A program made the translations under genes and the position numbers. 46,796 nucleotides of DNA from positions 1 through 46,796 of the forward strand of contig JAFYMW010000059.1 in the NCBI GenBank assembly GCA_017548165.1, in the 5' to 3' direction. Origin of the DNA: Bacteroidaceae bacterium (GTDB taxonomy: Bacteria; Bacteroidota; Bacteroidia; Bacteroidales; Bacteroidaceae). Below, piece by piece: positions 3,073-12,913 of the stretch; the stretch's first letter is position 1, and every line of letters starts with the position of its first letter. The notes under the pieces were generated by a model. That model searched no databases and had not been told where the DNA came from. It saw only the letters and a program-made list of their open reading frames with translations.

Positions 3073-4773
3073 ATGAGAGTTTATATCATTGTTATTTTTT
3101 GTTTGTTGTCCAATCTGTTCGTTCTACCTAAGGCCTATGGACAATATGCGACCAATGAATGGAGCCTGCGTATTGGTTCTGGCAAGGACAGTATTGATGT
3201 TTATAATATGTACTCTACTTTGTCTAGTTCATATACAAGGACACAAAGAGAGTTTGACCTAGGGGCTTATAGACTTGTAAGTGATATTCTAACTAAAGCT
3301 CCTCATATTGATTATCTTTTTTATACCACACAATGGATTGAGGCCTTTTGGAAACAACTTATTTCTAAAGAAGATGACAAGGCTATCAAGATGATCTATT
3401 TTGAGGACATGATGACAACCCTTGACCGATTGATTTGGGACAGAGATTATTTGAATAAACTCCGTTTTGAAACAAACCTTCGTAATCACCAAAGCGATGG
3501 TACTGCTCGAGTGAATAAGGCACATTATTATTTTACTGTTGGTAAAAAGGAGATGTCGGGATTAAATTACAATGCTGACAGTGCTTATCATTACTTTAAG
3601 GATGCCTTTACTGCTGTTCGTAATTCTGAGCAGGCAGAAGGTTCTGATGAGATTCTAGGTGTTTATCTTTGGGAATATTTCGATAGTAGTTACGATTTGT
3701 ATAAAAATGATAATGAACGTTATCAAGAGCAATTCCTTCAAGATTACTTGGATTGTATTGCTGCTTGTGATAAGATGTTGGAACCTGCATACGAGGAAAC
3801 TGATTCTGCAAAGCAAATGGACATTTTTGCAAAATACTGGCATCATAAGGATACTATTCAAAAGGTGTTCAATGCCAGTGGTTCTGCTTCTCCAGAGCGT
3901 TTGAATGATTTTTATGGTCGTAAATTTGCTGAAAATCGCAATAATCACGAGTATCTTGAAAGAGCCATTAACTTCATGAACGAGAACAATTGTGTTAATA
4001 TTGACGCATTTTATACATATAGTGAGACATCTTATGCTATAAAACCGACATATCTCAATAGTTTGGGTTGCGCTTATAGCAGTAAGGCATTAGGCATGCG
4101 TGATGAAATGTTTGAATATTATCGTAAGGCTATGGAGTTGTCCACAAACGACTTTATTAAGGGACAGGTTGCCAATATTATTGCTAATGAAATTACGATT
4201 ACTGGTCGTCCAAAAGATTATGCAACTGATACATTGAAGTATCAAGAGTGGATGCAGGATATGAATATAGCAGAAACTTATCTTAAAGAGGTAATCAACT
4301 ATAAGGAGGCTTTTTTCGCAACACAAAATGACAATCGATTAAAACCGGCTCATGCAGCTTACAAACTTGGTAACCTTAAATATTACCTTGCTGCAGCCAA
4401 TGTTTCTTTGGACGAAATTAATGCATCCATTAGTTATTACAATGAAGCAAAGGAGTTAGCTTCATTTGATCCTACTAGATACAAGGACGTTACTCGTGAG
4501 ATAGAGCGTTCAACTGAGTTGAAACGTAGAATTCAGTCCGCTAAATCTAGCTCTTCTTCTGGAAACAAGAATTTTCAACAGTATAGAGATGCACTCAATA
4601 GTCTAAGAAAGAGTGCTTTGGGTGAGATATTCATGAGTGGTAGAGTAACTGCAGAAGTTGTCAAGTATGAGGATTACTACAATCAATGTTTAAAAACCAA
4701 GGGCTTGATTGATACTAATCAGCGTAGACAGCACGAAGCATATTTAAAAACCAAGCGACAGAATGGCCTTTGA
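3073..4773 (+). CDS. Secreted helical (TPR-like) protein
   Basis: A 566-residue protein with a signal peptide (about 1-23, ending KAYGQ). The rest is almost entirely predicted helix rich in Tyr, Lys and Asn, with helix-turn-helix units spaced like tetratricopeptide repeats, for example around NSLGCAYSSKALGMRDEMFEY and AHAAYKLGNLKYYLAAANV. A Ser-rich linker (SSSSSG) at about 497 precedes a C-terminal helical segment of about 70 residues. No enzyme motif is seen. The 36-base gaps on each side fit co-transcription with the barrel genes. A periplasmic scaffold that binds the barrels or the OmpA-like protein is plausible but inferred. The family was not recognised beyond hypothetical Bacteroidales secreted TPR proteins. 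Confidence 0.6.
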   Translation: MRVYIIVIFCLLSNLFVLPKAYGQYATNEWSLRIGSGKDSIDVYNMYSTLSSSYTRTQREFDLGAYRLVSDILTKAPHIDYLFYTTQWIEAFWKQLISKEDDKAIKMIYFEDMMTTLDRLIWDRDYLNKLRFETNLRNHQSDGTARVNKAHYYFTVGKKEMSGLNYNADSAYHYFKDAFTAVRNSEQAEGSDEILGVYLWEYFDSSYDLYKNDNERYQEQFLQDYLDCIAACDKMLEPAYEETDSAKQMDIFAKYWHHKDTIQKVFNASGSASPERLNDFYGRKFAENRNNHEYLERAINFMNENNCVNIDAFYTYSETSYAIKPTYLNSLGCAYSSKALGMRDEMFEYYRKAMELSTNDFIKGQVANIIANEITITGRPKDYATDTLKYQEWMQDMNIAETYLKEVINYKEAFFATQNDNRLKPAHAAYKLGNLKYYLAAANVSLDEINASISYYNEAKELASFDPTRYKDVTREIERSTELKRRIQSAKSSSSSGNKNFQQYRDALNSLRKSALGEIFMSGRVTAEVVKYEDYYNQCLKTKGLIDTNQRRQHEAYLKTKRQNGL

Positions 4774-6724: not shown

Positions 6725-7258
6725 ATGAAGAAAATATTTATAGCATTCTTGTTGGCATTGTCATCAACTGTTGCTCATGCACAATTGATAGCAGTAAAGA
6801 CAAATGCGCTTATGGATGCGGCAATGACTCCCAATATTGGCTTGGAGGTAGCCTTGAGTAGTAATATTTCCGTTGCAGCAAATGGATTTGCAAGTTGGAA
6901 CATTTATGGCATGAAGGCCAAGACCTATGGTTTTACACCTGAGTTTCGCTATTGGTTGTATGGCAATACTTTCTCAAAGTTGTTTGTAGGTGCTGGTGCC
7001 ACATTGGCACACTATGATTTTAATGTATCTGACTATAATCATTTGGGTTCCACATGGGGTGTGGGTGTAAATGTCGGTTACAACATGTGGCTTGCCAAGC
7101 ATTGGAGTGTTGAATTCCATGGTGGTGTAGGTGCTTATCGTTATCATCATGCACGTAACCATGTCAACAGCATTCCTGCAGAGCCAGTGTACAATTCAGA
7201 AGGATGGACAGTCCTTCCCTATCAGTTAGGTATTAGTTTTGTTTATATTATAAAATGA
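6725..7258 (+). CDS. DUF3575 outer-membrane barrel protein
   Basis: A 177-residue protein of normal size for DUF3575. The signal peptide is MKKIFIAFLLALSSTVAHAQ. It continues with the family's opening strands LIAVKTNALMDAAMTPNIGLEVAL, then TPEFRYWLY, KLFVGAGATLAHYDF, GVGVNVGYNMWLAKHWSVEFHGGVG and a terminal aromatic strand (LGISFVYIIK). It is predicted to be a small 8-stranded outer-membrane barrel. DUF3575 genes recur in Bacteroidales fimbrial and surface loci; their molecular role is not known to me. The stop codon overlaps the start of the next gene (ATGA, 7255-7258), which suggests translational coupling with the giant multi-barrel protein and perhaps a stoichiometric partnership. Confidence 0.85.
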   Translation: MKKIFIAFLLALSSTVAHAQLIAVKTNALMDAAMTPNIGLEVALSSNISVAANGFASWNIYGMKAKTYGFTPEFRYWLYGNTFSKLFVGAGATLAHYDFNVSDYNHLGSTWGVGVNVGYNMWLAKHWSVEFHGGVGAYRYHHARNHVNSIPAEPVYNSEGWTVLPYQLGISFVYIIK

Positions 7259-10200
7259 GGTTAAGAGGTTTTATGATGACAAGAAAGCATCCCTTGGGTT
7301 TATGCTTTAAGGGAGTACTCTTGGTGCATTTCCTGTTATTTGGGTCGGTGAGCATGTATGCCCAGAACGACTCCACGTCTGTTGGGAAACAGCAGGATGA
7401 CATGGAATTCAATGCTCCAAAAACTTATGTAGATTTTACTCCAGAGGACGTTCAGCTCCAGAAGAGGTATCGTCCTACGGAGAATGATGTGTTGTTCCCG
7501 ACTAAATGGTGGAGACGTATGTATATTGGTGCAGGTGCAGGTGTAGACGGTATCTCCGACAATTTTGCCTCTGCTTTCCAACCTCAGTTCTTTGGCTATT
7601 TGGGATATAAGTTCTCTCCCATACATGGTATGAGAGCCAAGTTCACTTTGTCTGAGTACAGTCTTGGAACTTCTGCTCAAAAAGCAAAGATCTATGGTTT
7701 TGGACTGGACTATCTCGCTAATTTGAGCAATTTTGCGTTGGGTTACAACCAGTATCGTACATTCGAATTCAGTACAGTACTTGGTGCAGGTATGTTGTAT
7801 TCTTCACAGCCAATACCCAATAAGGTTGTGCCTTATGCACAATTGGGATTGCGTGTTGATGCACGTCTGTCAAGTAATTTTGATGTTTTTCTTGAACCTT
7901 ATGTTGGTTTGCAAGGATCAGTGGATGACGTTTTTGCAAATGCCAATCCCGAAAGCTGGAATCTTCAGTATGGTATAAGAGGTGGTGCCCACATTAACTT
8001 CAACGAGCGTTACAATCGCTTCCTCAAGTCTGATAGCGTTTATCGTCAGCCATTTATCGATGCCAGCATAGGTCTCGTAGGTTCTGGTCGTGCTGGTGGT
8101 ATAACACATCGTACTGGTGTAGGTTATCAAGCAGCATTGGGTATGTGGCTTAACCCTGTGTTTGGTTTGCGTGGCGGTCTTCAGGCCCAGTCACATCATT
8201 GGATGTCTCGCAAGGTTAATATGCAGGGGGTAAAGGTTATCGAAAACAGTGACCAGGTACTGGCAGGTGTTCGTGCTGAGGTGATGGTAAACCCTTTGAA
8301 TATCATTAAGTCATGGCGTGATAAGCAGGGTGGTCACGATTTTGACCTGAACTTGTTGGGTGGTGTTGACTTTGGTGCAACTCAAAAGGCCAACGTTACA
8401 GGTTCTTCTACAGGTGGTTATCGTTCTTATTATTACGGACTAACAGCTGCTATGCAGGTTTTGTACCGTATCAATAATCCTGGTACATATATTTATGTTG
8501 AACCTAGATTATCTACTGCCAACTATAATGTTCCTAACGCATCAGGTGTAGGTACACGCAATATGAGGAGTCCTTATTTGTCAATGAATGTAGGTACTCG
8601 TGTGTACATGAACCAGCATGCATTTACTTCCAACGATTATGAGTTGTTCTCACCACATTGGTGGATGGGTGTTGAGTTTGGTGGTGTCAAGTGGCAACGT
8701 TCAAGAACTTATACTACTGGTGGCCTTGGTTTCAATCCCACATTTGGTATGAGTATCGGTTATGACTTGAAACCTTTGGCCTCTTTCCGTGCTCAGTTGG
8801 TGTATCAGCGTATGTATGAGACTCATCAAGTTGGTTACAAGGGCATGACTGAAGACAATCGTGTGCAGAGAGGAACAGGATTGTTCAATTCTGCATATAA
8901 TGAGATGGATTTGCGTTTGTCTTATATGCTCAACCTGAGCACTGTATTGCAAGGATATAATGCTGATCGTAGAATGAATCTATGGTGGACTGTGGGTCCC
9001 AGTTTCAGCTATAACTTCAGTCAAAAGGACACTTATGTTGAGGATCAAAAGAATCCCAATCCCGAGCTTAAGGATGTTACTTTGAACGATAAGAAGGCAG
9101 GTAAGGCTTCTCCTGGTGTTGCTACATCATTGATAGCAGCATTGAAGGTAAATGATAGGATGGATGTTACTGCTGAAGCTTATGGTCAGTATAATTTCCT
9201 TCCAAGTGTCAATCCCGGCAATCGTGGTCGTCTGAATAGTGTGAAATATGGAGTTAGTGTTGGTACACGCTATCACTTTGAAGAGGGTGAGTCTCTCAAG
9301 TCTGGAAACACAGATCATAGCGACTTCTTCTTCGATGGTAGTATAGGTTGGACCACAAACAAGATCTCTCTTCATAATGCAGGTACAAAATATACAGCAG
9401 CAATTGGTAAGTGGATTAATCCTTTGTGGGGTCTGCGTGTAGGTATTAATACCAATACTCTTAAGCATAGCGCACCAGAGGTAAGTGTTGCTGGTGTTGA
9501 CCTTCGCCACAATAAGACTATGGTGATGGCTGGTGCAAGAGGTGAGTTACTGCTTAATCCTTTGAATTTCTTCAATGGTTGGCGCAATAAAGTAGGTGGT
9601 CATGATTTCGATTTGAACTTCTCTGCAGGTGCAGAACTCGGATACTTAGCAAAGAACGATTTTGGTAATGGTAGATTCCATAATTCATATTATGGTGTAA
9701 CAACAGCTTTGCAGTTCTTGTATCGTATCAACAACCCTGGTACGTATATCTACCTTGAGCCTCGTTACCTGTCAACATATTATACAGCACCTTACACAGG
9801 CACAAAGATTAATCATACAGTGTCCGACAACATGTTCTCAATGAATTTGGGTGTTCGTACTTATTTGACAGATCCCTCTTTTGTTCCTGCCAACTCTCAT
9901 AAAATGGAGAAAAGTTGGTGGGTCGGTGCAGATTTCGGTTCTATGTATGTGATGCGCTCTTCTGCATTTACTACTCCTGGTGGCTTGGGAATGAATCCCA
10001 GTTTGACCTTCTCTGCAGGTTATGACTACAAACCTTTGTTGTCTTTCCGTGCACAGTTGTCTTATCAGCATTATTCCGATTATCAGAACACCTCTTATAC
10101 AGGCTTGACAACTGATAATAAGTATATCAAGGGTAATGGTTTGTGGAATCGCAACTATAATATCATGGACTTGCGTTTTGCATACATGCTCAACATAAAT

Positions 10201-11841
10201 AACTTCTTCCAAGGGTATGATCAAAACAGAAAGTTTAACTTTTGGATGACTGCTGGTCCTGGTATGTCGTTCATGTTGGCTCAGAACAATGATTGGGTAG
10301 ACGGACAGAGCAACAATCTTAAGGTTGCTGAGGAGTATAGATTGCCAAACGATAGAAGTGGTAAAGTTTCTCCCACATTGCATGCTTCGTTCATGACATC
10401 ATATAAGGTTTCCAACAAGGTTGATCTTACAGCCGAGGCTTTGGGACAATTGAACTTGCTAGCATCTACCAATCCTGGTAACAAGGGGCGTGTGAATACA
10501 CTTAAGTATTCTTTTGCTCTCGGTGCAAGATATCATTTGGAGGAAGATGCTGTTAAAGAATTCTTCTCAAATTCTGGTTTGAAATCTTGGAATAGAGGAT
10601 GGATGCTTGAGGCTTCTTATGGGTGGGCATTCCCTGCTGGTACTGGCGCTAGAGGTGGTGGTAGCAGTATGCAACTCTCTTTGGGACGCTGGTTTACCAA
10701 TGTGGTTGGTATTAGAGCAGCAGTAGGTGGTAGTCAGGGCTATTGGAAGAAGGGAGATTATGCCGCAGTAGTTAATGCTGCTGGTGAGACAACAAGAACT
10801 GCATATTCACGTTTCTCTGAGCAGATGAAGATTGGTGGACGTGTGGAGTTACTTCTTAATCCCCTAAATCTTCTTTCATTCAGAAAGAATTTGGATGAAG
10901 CTCCCAAGTATGACATGAATATGTCTCTTGGTTTTGCCTTTGGTGGTTTTGCCAAGGTAAATGGTGCTCAGCGTGGTGGCTATACTGGTTTTACTGCTGC
11001 TGTAACAGGTCTGTATAGAGTGTCAAACAACACACAGTTGTTTGTTGAACCACGTATCGAGACCCAGAGTCACAGTTCTATCATCGAGGTTATGGGATTC
11101 AGAAAGAGATTCTCTGATAATATGTTCTCTCTTAATGTAGGTGCTCGTGTGTCTCGTCCTGGTGGTGAGTCTAAGGAGAGCAGAAGAGAGGTTGACCCTA
11201 GCAAGATGTCTCATCGTGGATGGTGGGTAGCTGGTAGTTTTGGTGGCAGCAAGATGAATCAGACCATCAAACTCTCAAATGGCGGTTTAGGACTGAATCC
11301 TTCATTTACCTTCACTTCTGGTTATGATCTAACTCGTCTGCATGGTTTCCGTGCTCAGTTGGCATATGATATACATTCACGTTTCCGTCCTAATCAGGCA
11401 TATTCCGTGCTGGTTAATGATAGAAGGGTAAAGTATACTGGTTCAATGAAGAGTAATTATCAGCAGTTTGATATCCGTCTTCAGTATATGCTAAATGTTT
11501 CTAATTGGTGGACAGGCTATGACAAGCGTAGCAAGTTCAATGCTTATTGGTCATTTGGTCCTTCTTTGTCTACTTTGGTTGCTGAAGGTCATTCTTTGGT
11601 TTCCAATGAAGTGGAGAGAGGCAGCGATATGGAGTATTTGGGTAGAAAATATTGCGGTAAGGTATCGTTTGGCTTGTCAACAAGTGCTTTGATGACACTC
11701 GCTATCACCAACCAATGGGATGCAACAGCTGAGGTAATGGGACAGTATCACTTCAATCGTGGTTACATGCCAGAGAACCATCACAAGTTCCTCAATGGTG
11801 TTAAAATCAACTTCAGCTTAGGTGCAAGATATAATTTCTAA
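7255..11841 (+). CDS. Giant tandem-barrel outer-membrane protein, seven modules
   Basis: A 1528-residue protein with a signal peptide ending at about 37 (SVSMYAQ). After a short acidic segment it is built of seven repeats of about 165-210 residues, each readable as eight amphipathic strands. Odd modules (about 85-249, 469-675, 888-1095, 1323-1528) begin with a Trp-Trp pair at 85, 469, 888 and 1323. Even modules (about 267-452, 691-871, 1116-1301) carry NPLN at 346, 768 and 1202 and RINNPGTYIY or its degenerate form at 405, 824 and 1255. Six modules end in a GxR strand like a C-terminal barrel signal (GTRYHF, GARYHL, GARYNF and relatives); the first ends in a diverged GGAHINF. The second and third pairs are the most alike; the fourth is more diverged. 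Whether it forms seven small barrels or one very wide barrel cannot be told. It overlaps the upstream DUF3575 gene by four bases. No catalytic motif was seen. Confidence 0.8.
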   Translation: MRLRGFMMTRKHPLGLCFKGVLLVHFLLFGSVSMYAQNDSTSVGKQQDDMEFNAPKTYVDFTPEDVQLQKRYRPTENDVLFPTKWWRRMYIGAGAGVDGISDNFASAFQPQFFGYLGYKFSPIHGMRAKFTLSEYSLGTSAQKAKIYGFGLDYLANLSNFALGYNQYRTFEFSTVLGAGMLYSSQPIPNKVVPYAQLGLRVDARLSSNFDVFLEPYVGLQGSVDDVFANANPESWNLQYGIRGGAHINFNERYNRFLKSDSVYRQPFIDASIGLVGSGRAGGITHRTGVGYQAALGMWLNPVFGLRGGLQAQSHHWMSRKVNMQGVKVIENSDQVLAGVRAEVMVNPLNIIKSWRDKQGGHDFDLNLLGGVDFGATQKANVTGSSTGGYRSYYYGLTAAMQVLYRINNPGTYIYVEPRLSTANYNVPNASGVGTRNMRSPYLSMNVGTRVYMNQHAFTSNDYELFSPHWWMGVEFGGVKWQRSRTYTTGGLGFNPTFGMSIGYDLKPLASFRAQLVYQRMYETHQVGYKGMTEDNRVQRGTGLFNSAYNEMDLRLSYMLNLSTVLQGYNADRRMNLWWTVGPSFSYNFSQKDTYVEDQKNPNPELKDVTLNDKKAGKASPGVATSLIAALKVNDRMDVTAEAYGQYNFLPSVNPGNRGRLNSVKYGVSVGTRYHFEEGESLKSGNTDHSDFFFDGSIGWTTNKISLHNAGTKYTAAIGKWINPLWGLRVGINTNTLKHSAPEVSVAGVDLRHNKTMVMAGARGELLLNPLNFFNGWRNKVGGHDFDLNFSAGAELGYLAKNDFGNGRFHNSYYGVTTALQFLYRINNPGTYIYLEPRYLSTYYTAPYTGTKINHTVSDNMFSMNLGVRTYLTDPSFVPANSHKMEKSWWVGADFGSMYVMRSSAFTTPGGLGMNPSLTFSAGYDYKPLLSFRAQLSYQHYSDYQNTSYTGLTTDNKYIKGNGLWNRNYNIMDLRFAYMLNINNFFQGYDQNRKFNFWMTAGPGMSFMLAQNNDWVDGQSNNLKVAEEYRLPNDRSGKVSPTLHASFMTSYKVSNKVDLTAEALGQLNLLASTNPGNKGRVNTLKYSFALGARYHLEEDAVKEFFSNSGLKSWNRGWMLEASYGWAFPAGTGARGGGSSMQLSLGRWFTNVVGIRAAVGGSQGYWKKGDYAAVVNAAGETTRTAYSRFSEQMKIGGRVELLLNPLNLLSFRKNLDEAPKYDMNMSLGFAFGGFAKVNGAQRGGYTGFTAAVTGLYRVSNNTQLFVEPRIETQSHSSIIEVMGFRKRFSDNMFSLNVGARVSRPGGESKESRREVDPSKMSHRGWWVAGSFGGSKMNQTIKLSNGGLGLNPSFTFTSGYDLTRLHGFRAQLAYDIHSRFRPNQAYSVLVNDRRVKYTGSMKSNYQQFDIRLQYMLNVSNWWTGYDKRSKFNAYWSFGPSLSTLVAEGHSLVSNEVERGSDMEYLGRKYCGKVSFGLSTSALMTLAITNQWDATAEVMGQYHFNRGYMPENHHKFLNGVKINFSLGARYNF

Positions 11842-12073: not shown

Positions 12074-12913
12074 TTAAATAACACATAAATGGAAACGTAG
12101 TATCTCTTCTGCAGGACGGTTTATGATTCTACCCAATTTAAGTCCATTCTCCTTGCAGGCATTGGCAATTTCTTCTTTAAAATTATTTGCTACTCCACCA
12201 ACAAAGTTCACAGGTAGATCTAATCTGTTGTATGGTATTACGTTTCTTTTTAGGAATTGGGTGAATTCTGATACTACCAAATTCTTTACAGTGATATGAT
12301 GAAGGTTCTTTTTTATAAAAGGAACAATAGAGGCAAGGAATCGATTGGCTTGTGGTTGTCTGTATACTTTATTGATTACATCTGCAACTTCAAGTTGATA
12401 CTCTTCGGAGAACGAACTCCATAATTCTTTTAACTCGCCTTTAAGCATTTCTGCCAACATCTTCCTACCTAAGACGGCTCCACTGCCTTCATCGCCAAGG
12501 ATATAGCCCAGTGGAGAAATATTTTGAATTATTTGTCCGTCTTTACAAAGGCATGAGTTGCTTCCAGTTCCAAGGATACATGCAATACCTTCCTCCCTGC
12601 CGCACAAGGCACGTACAGCTCCCAGAAGGTCGCTATAAACATATACTTTTGCTTTGGTAAAAGTATTTTCTATAGCTCTACGAACACTTTGAAGGAATGG
12701 TTCTATACATCCTGCTCCATAGAAGTGGATTTCTGTTACTTCATCTGCATTCTGTTGAGATTCAGAAAAAAGCAAAGGCATTAACTCTGTGTTTATGATA
12801 CTTAGAATCTCTTCGTAAGAATCACGCACAGGGTTAATGCCCTTTGTAGTAACAGATAGTCTTTCTGTAATCCACTCTGTTTTTGTAGATCCGCTATCTG
12901 CAACGATAATCAT
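12074..12913 (-). CDS. BadF/BadG/NAGK-type ATPase (putative amino-sugar kinase)
   Basis: A 279-residue protein of the ASKHA fold. The phosphate-1 loop is at the very N-terminus (ADSGSTKTEW), the second glycine-rich motif is CILGTGSNSC near 110, and GYILGDEGSGAVLGRK follows, the signature of the BadF/BadG/BcrA/BcrD and N-acetylglucosamine kinase family. No iron-sulfur cysteine motif of the benzoyl-CoA type activators is present, so a sugar kinase acting on GlcNAc or a related amino sugar in the cytoplasm is the better reading. Substrate cannot be fixed from sequence. It is the last gene of the - strand unit, 28 bases after secG, and is followed by a terminator. Confidence 0.8.
   Translation of the reverse strand: MIIVADSGSTKTEWITERLSVTTKGINPVRDSYEEILSIINTELMPLLFSESQQNADEVTEIHFYGAGCIEPFLQSVRRAIENTFTKAKVYVYSDLLGAVRALCGREEGIACILGTGSNSCLCKDGQIIQNISPLGYILGDEGSGAVLGRKMLAEMLKGELKELWSSFSEEYQLEVADVINKVYRQPQANRFLASIVPFIKKNLHHITVKNLVVSEFTQFLKRNVIPYNRLDLPVNFVGGVANNFKEEIANACKENGLKLGRIINRPAEEILRFHLCVI

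Follow-up and report, generated by a model that had tools for sequence, protein, structure and literature searches.

A 1528-residue Bacteroidaceae protein predicted to be a string of seven 8-stranded outer-membrane barrels, and its multi-module family

We analysed a stretch of DNA of 46,796 nucleotides from a Bacteroidaceae bacterium (hereafter the window; GCA_017548165.1, contig JAFYMW010000059.1, positions 1 to 46,796), in which an uninterrupted open reading frame (ORF; 7255-11841, plus strand) encodes a protein of 1528 residues. In our reading, held at a probability of about 0.8 and based on structure predictions, the seven modules of this protein form a string of separate transmembrane barrels, each of eight strands and of the OmpA/OmpW kind, and the protein would reside in the outer membrane. 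The modules, of about 200 residues each, follow in the order B0-A1-B1-A2-B2-A3-B3, are joined by linkers of 16-21 residues and give an A-B pair period of about 420 residues. Related proteins are present in many genera of Bacteroidaceae; in the loci that were read, a chain has 3, 4, 5, 7, 8, 9 or 13 modules. Multi-barrel proteins are a known class that has received little study, and this family adds to it.

A preliminary description of the sequence had proposed seven alternating tandem units, each of eight amphipathic strands, from recurring short motifs. All of these motifs are present: WW at residues 85, 469, 888 and 1323 (with additional copies at 577 and 1418), NPLN at 346, 768 and 1202, and RINNPGTY at 405 and 824, with a diverged form, RVSNN, starting at 1255. 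In pairwise alignments, each compared with 200 shuffles, type A modules are clearly repeats of one another (A1-A2, 75/180 identical residues, z 62; A1-A3, 61/170, z 31; A2-A3, 61/181, z 29), as are type B modules (B1-B2, 96/209, z 83; B1-B3, 78/203, z 56; B2-B3, 79/209, z 47). The first module, B0, is a weak relative of B (z 9.1 with B2, 6.6 with B1 and 5.2 with B3), and for B0-B3 one shuffle in 200, with a score of 68, exceeds the real score (63). Pairwise alignment detected no relationship between A and B, with no z above 4; the sole pair with z 4, B1-A2, is explained by 11 residues common to overlapping cuts. Profile-profile comparison connected B with B0 (E 1.2e-11), A with B0 (E 1.5e-5) and A with B (186 columns, E 0.0034, compared to 0.03 for the reversed control), suggesting that all three types are related, with A-B as the weakest link.

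Two AlphaFold2 models of overlapping pieces (residues 38-686 and 457-1528; mean predicted local distance difference test scores of 81.2 and 76.9) contain eight main strands in each of the seven modules. Hydropathy alternation in the 56 predicted strands averages 3.85, compared to 2.65 +/- 0.13 for within-strand shuffles, of which 0/500 reach the observed value. The observations of the preliminary description are thus confirmed, and we encountered neither of the two outcomes that it had named as contrary to it, i.e., a single barrel with non-barrel repeats or a lack of periodicity near 420 residues. Six of the seven modules were separately matched by VIA-align to single 8-stranded barrels (OmpA, OmpW, NspA, OmpX and CarO; best Z per matched module, 12.8-18.1), whereas no separate structural match was listed for B2.

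When B-A-B triples were scanned alone, 18 of 29 matched PF13505 (OMP_b-brl) at E <= 1 (best 6.5e-11), whereas neither the whole 1528-residue protein nor its own first B-A-B triple did; a profile match to the OmpA barrel 2jmm had E 0.0041 over 39 positions. NCBIfam matches to PorT/SprT in two of four relatives, far below the cut-off, were taken as general barrel similarity. Whole-protein searches of Pfam, NCBIfam, PHROGs and PDB sequences returned nothing useful, and no match was found in the viral contigs searched. The predicted fold of the modules is the single 8-stranded, OmpA-type barrel, and that one chain holds more than one closed transmembrane barrel is likewise a prediction. The protein does not belong to the OmpA family proper, because it has no match (E <= 1) to the C-terminal domain PF00691; no DUF3575 match was found in it either.

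The preliminary description had left a choice between a string of small barrels and one exceptionally wide barrel. The models and the separate single-barrel matches argue for the string and against a single closed barrel of 56 strands with all modules edge to edge. It should be noted that the even strand number per module and the short linkers make edge pairing conceivable, that large single barrels exist (up to 36 strands in SprA), and that the first-ranked Foldseek matches to a three-module model were large barrels; these had very low template-modelling scores, the plain Foldseek search was uninformative, and we consider a barrel of this width highly improbable. A second arrangement, in which A-B pairs form 16-stranded porin-like barrels and B0 stands alone (8+16+16+16), would fit the alternation of A and B in the seven-module clade and their duplication as pairs. 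However, A and B modules were each matched as closed 8-stranded barrels, and some relatives lack a clear A and consist of four, five or eight B0/B-like modules; we give this arrangement very little credence.

The seven-module build also occurs in other genomes of the genus. Orthologues with the same seven modules (1527-1565 residues, 46-62% identity to the window protein) were found in five other genomes, which makes an assembly artefact unlikely. In all six proteins, every module except B0, which lacks the R, has a terminal GxR, as the preliminary description had noted for the window protein. GxR is followed by Y where the module is of type B, and by V, L, I or T where it is of type A. These ends may act as signals for the barrel-assembly machinery (BAM). 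Among the six orthologues, for modules B0, A1 and B1 and with loops and turns sorted under the assumption of a periplasmic N-terminus, conservation was lower in extracellular loops (0.607, 111 positions) than in periplasmic turns (0.747, 66 positions; permutation p 3e-4), with strands at 0.732. In the turn between strands 4 and 5, A1 has NPLN, and B0 and B1 have a GY-x3-R motif.

A plausible course of assembly can be outlined. The protein would be secreted by means of its signal-peptide-like segment, for which cleavage after AQ is suggested by eye, and BAM would fold the barrels in succession, with a terminal-strand signal of its own on each of six. Since the strand number, eight, is even, every barrel would begin and end in the periplasm, and the linkers would never cross the membrane. 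Barrels of the 8-stranded OmpA type have no wide lumen; therefore, a role as a transport channel is unlikely.

Presence of the family is patchy: at E <= 1e-20, 25 of 139 genomes of the genus match (the window's own included), and none of the 18 with a completeness of 90% or more and a contamination of 5% or less does. Eight of 15 loci labelled Bacteroidaceae, Prevotellaceae or Bacteroides sp. are recorded as coming from ruminant gut samples. A family-level search at E <= 1e-15 matched 122 of 399 genomes and 22 of 30 genera, a figure that takes in proteins of ~370-420 residues matched over the first barrel alone. Of 395 genomes sampled across the class, four matched, namely, the window's own and three of the same family; the cut-off there (E <= 1e-25) was stricter, and weaker kin may exist elsewhere.

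The preliminary description had suggested a search for homologues with other module numbers, and these exist, with 3 to 13 modules. In the genus, with B0 counted from ~190 residues before the first A, there are eight proteins with three modules (601-711 residues), two with five (1121 and 1135), seven with seven (including the window's) and one with nine (1966 residues), and a B-rich branch (997-1385 residues) in which the module count is less clear. Twenty family-level stretches, chosen from the search list mostly for long frames and the only ones in which a B0 profile was scored, contain proteins with 13 modules (2563 residues), 9, 8, 7 (two), 5 (six), 4 (two) and 3 (six). The protein with 13 modules by profile matches (locus L109:2496-10184, minus strand) is the longest among the loci read, and its gene adjoins c3 and DUF3575 genes. 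Relatives with B0/B-like modules and no clear A were seen at L120:3213-7808 (plus strand; 8 modules), L113 (5), L115 (4), L118 (4) and L126 (5). Their existence suggests that the A-B alternation is a local elaboration; the A-B pair of the preliminary description does not hold as a general repeat unit, and the interpretation offered there is partly supported. A rule by which the module number would always be odd (B0 plus A-B pairs) is true in close relatives and fails in the wider family (four in L115 and L118, eight in L120).

Module trees were calculated from 20 hand-chosen proteins (48 A and 39 B modules with at least 35 bits and more than 60% model coverage); several diverged B modules dropped out and many forks are unresolved. 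Within the seven-module clade, A1, A2 and A3, and likewise B1, B2 and B3, mostly cluster by position, with the A2 modules as a clade inside a 14-row group shared with A1. This grouping indicates that the seven-module build is older than these species. Independent amplification was found in L110 (four A modules, support 100/99) and in L056 (A2-A4, 100/100). Amplification of A-B pairs took place more than once.

The features of the operon are listed in Table 1. Its order is c3, FISUMP-like, c5, c4 (DUF3575-like), DUF3575 and the multi-barrel gene, the ATG of which overlaps the stop of the DUF3575 gene by 4 bp.

Table 1. Coordinates of the operon genes and of the parts of the multi-barrel protein in the window
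Feature	Position	Strand	Remarks
OmpA-domain-like gene (c3), open at contig start	1..2268	+	PF00691 E 6.3e-4, below cut-off; cluster of 17
FISUMP-domain-like gene (c7), 249 aa	2287..3036	+	PF09603 E 6.2e-6, below cut-off; cluster of 4
c5 gene, conserved set, 566 aa, no clear family	3073..4773	+	Cluster of 11
c4 gene with DUF3575-like part, 613 aa	4810..6651	+	PF12099 E 4.7e-10; cluster of 13
DUF3575 gene, 177 aa, directly upstream of the multi-barrel gene	6725..7258	+	PF12099 E 2.7e-37
N-terminal signal-peptide-like segment, residues 1-37, ends ...SVSMYAQ	7255..7365	+	Read by eye from sequence
Barrel module B0, residues 89-248, eight strands	7519..7998	+	
Barrel module A1, residues 267-451, eight strands	8053..8607	+	
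Barrel module B1, residues 468-674, eight strands	8656..9276	+	
Barrel module A2, residues 691-870, eight strands	9325..9864	+	
Barrel module B2, residues 887-1095, eight strands	9913..10539	+	AlphaFold2 strands; 96/209 identity to B1
Barrel module A3, residues 1115-1300, eight strands	10597..11154	+	
Barrel module B3, residues 1322-1527, eight strands, C-terminus GARYNF	11218..11835	+	

The c4 protein, conserved in related operons, has a later part rich in lysine, alanine and glutamate. Convergent with the operon lies a gene for an N-acetylglucosamine-kinase/BadF-like ATPase (12074-12913, minus strand), with family scores below the cut-off.

To describe the gene context, we counted neighbours of 42 multi-module genes of at least 550 residues, which come from 43 of 48 stretches with the window included (L020, L021, L026, L027 and L063, short or cut, were excluded) and are not a random sample. 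For 38/42, a DUF3575 gene is on the same strand and no more than two genes away, and c3 is within that distance of 31/42; the window's gene is not among the latter (its c3 is farther upstream). For 20/42, the fetched stretch contained a fimbrillin-like gene. In several related loci, such genes follow the multi-barrel gene or separate c4 from DUF3575, and three of four tested members of one fimbrillin-like cluster (L015) match PF13149. No fimbrillin-like gene was found near the window operon on its own contig; the same genome does contain PF13149 matches over the cut-off, four in number, and these lie on contig C109, away from this operon and next to a second DUF3575 gene. That second fimbrial-type locus (L139; G000:C109:12000-30000) holds Mfa_like_1 genes and encodes a DUF3575 protein of 424 residues, and no multi-barrel gene was recognised in the stretch. 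In B. thetaiotaomicron, DUF3868 and DUF3575 genes (BT4233-36) are described near the Mfa1-type gene BT4227 (PMC10434189).

Given this company, we tentatively favour a fimbria-related job, at less than even odds because the basis is gene neighbourhood: together with the DUF3575 protein and the OmpA-domain-like protein, the string of barrels may serve a fimbria-type surface system as its anchor or scaffold in the membrane, with the conserved periplasmic turns offered to partners and the variable loops to the outside. A more specific version, which we consider doubtful, is that the arrays are a dedicated outer-membrane platform, in which barrel number, varied as A-B pairs are amplified in tandem, determines the number of subunits or fibres anchored next to one another, and the conserved periplasmic turns dock the DUF3575 and OmpA-domain-like partners. 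Alternatively, the same string of barrels could have a job unrelated to fimbriae, as a general structural element, an adhesin or a receptor array. Fimbrillin genes would then be neighbours in some lineages only; none was found near the window operon or in the fetched stretch of 22/42 genes, while DUF3575 is a neighbour of 38/42. Conversely, many loci have several fimbrillin-like genes in the same gene run, some stretches end within one or two genes of the operon, and some members escape the fimbrillin profile, which was built from the genus (at L139, it flagged one gene, compared to four over-cut-off Pfam matches). We regard this alternative as a real possibility without adopting it.

In the multi-barrel class, Solan et al. 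(2021) reportedly found that combinations with 8-stranded barrels prevail and arose by lineage-specific amplification. The preliminary description had known of no protein with this build; as a kind, such proteins are already described, since a paper of 2021 introduced outer-membrane proteins with multiple barrels as a new class (Solan et al., PNAS, doi 10.1073/pnas.2104059118; PMC11494523; discussed in PMC8592465). The likeness of the window protein to this class lies in having more than one transmembrane barrel per chain, and the passages on the class in these sources mention neither a DUF3575/fimbrial setting nor 13 barrels. Its largest cluster includes GfcD, with barrels of 12 and 13 strands (PMC11494523). 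For GfcD/YjbH of the E. coli group 4 capsule, AlphaFold predicts two barrels in one chain, as it predicts several here; limited proteolysis gave two stable 30-kDa pieces, and the abstract of the same paper names a single 26-strand barrel as the HHomp prediction (PMC8592465). GfcD/YjbH differ in their 12- and 13-stranded barrels, in a periplasmic domain between them and in a capsule export setting (PMC8592465; PMC11494523). Closer at hand, an OmpA-family protein of 401 residues (L127 and L128, among the family-level stretches) has one barrel that is related to the modules (E 7.5e-10), followed by PF00691 at 304-390, whereas the window protein has seven predicted barrels and no such domain. The DUF3575 (PF12099) protein has the size of one module and a weak PF13505 match of its own (E 0.002); unlike the modules, it is a single-domain protein from a separate gene.

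The family is of specialist interest for its barrel number, the A-B alternation, its DUF3575/fimbrial company and its use as a test case for BAM, which has mostly been studied with one-barrel clients. We found no paper on a fimbrial setting of multi-barrel arrays in the open-licence literature searched, and we know of no usher for the fimbriae of this bacterial group. In chains of seven or 13 barrels, with a signal-like end on six of seven modules in the window protein, one-by-one folding by BAM, the end from which it starts and the handover between barrels would become testable. The family also provides a series of barrel numbers made by nature, in many cases beside fimbria-type genes.
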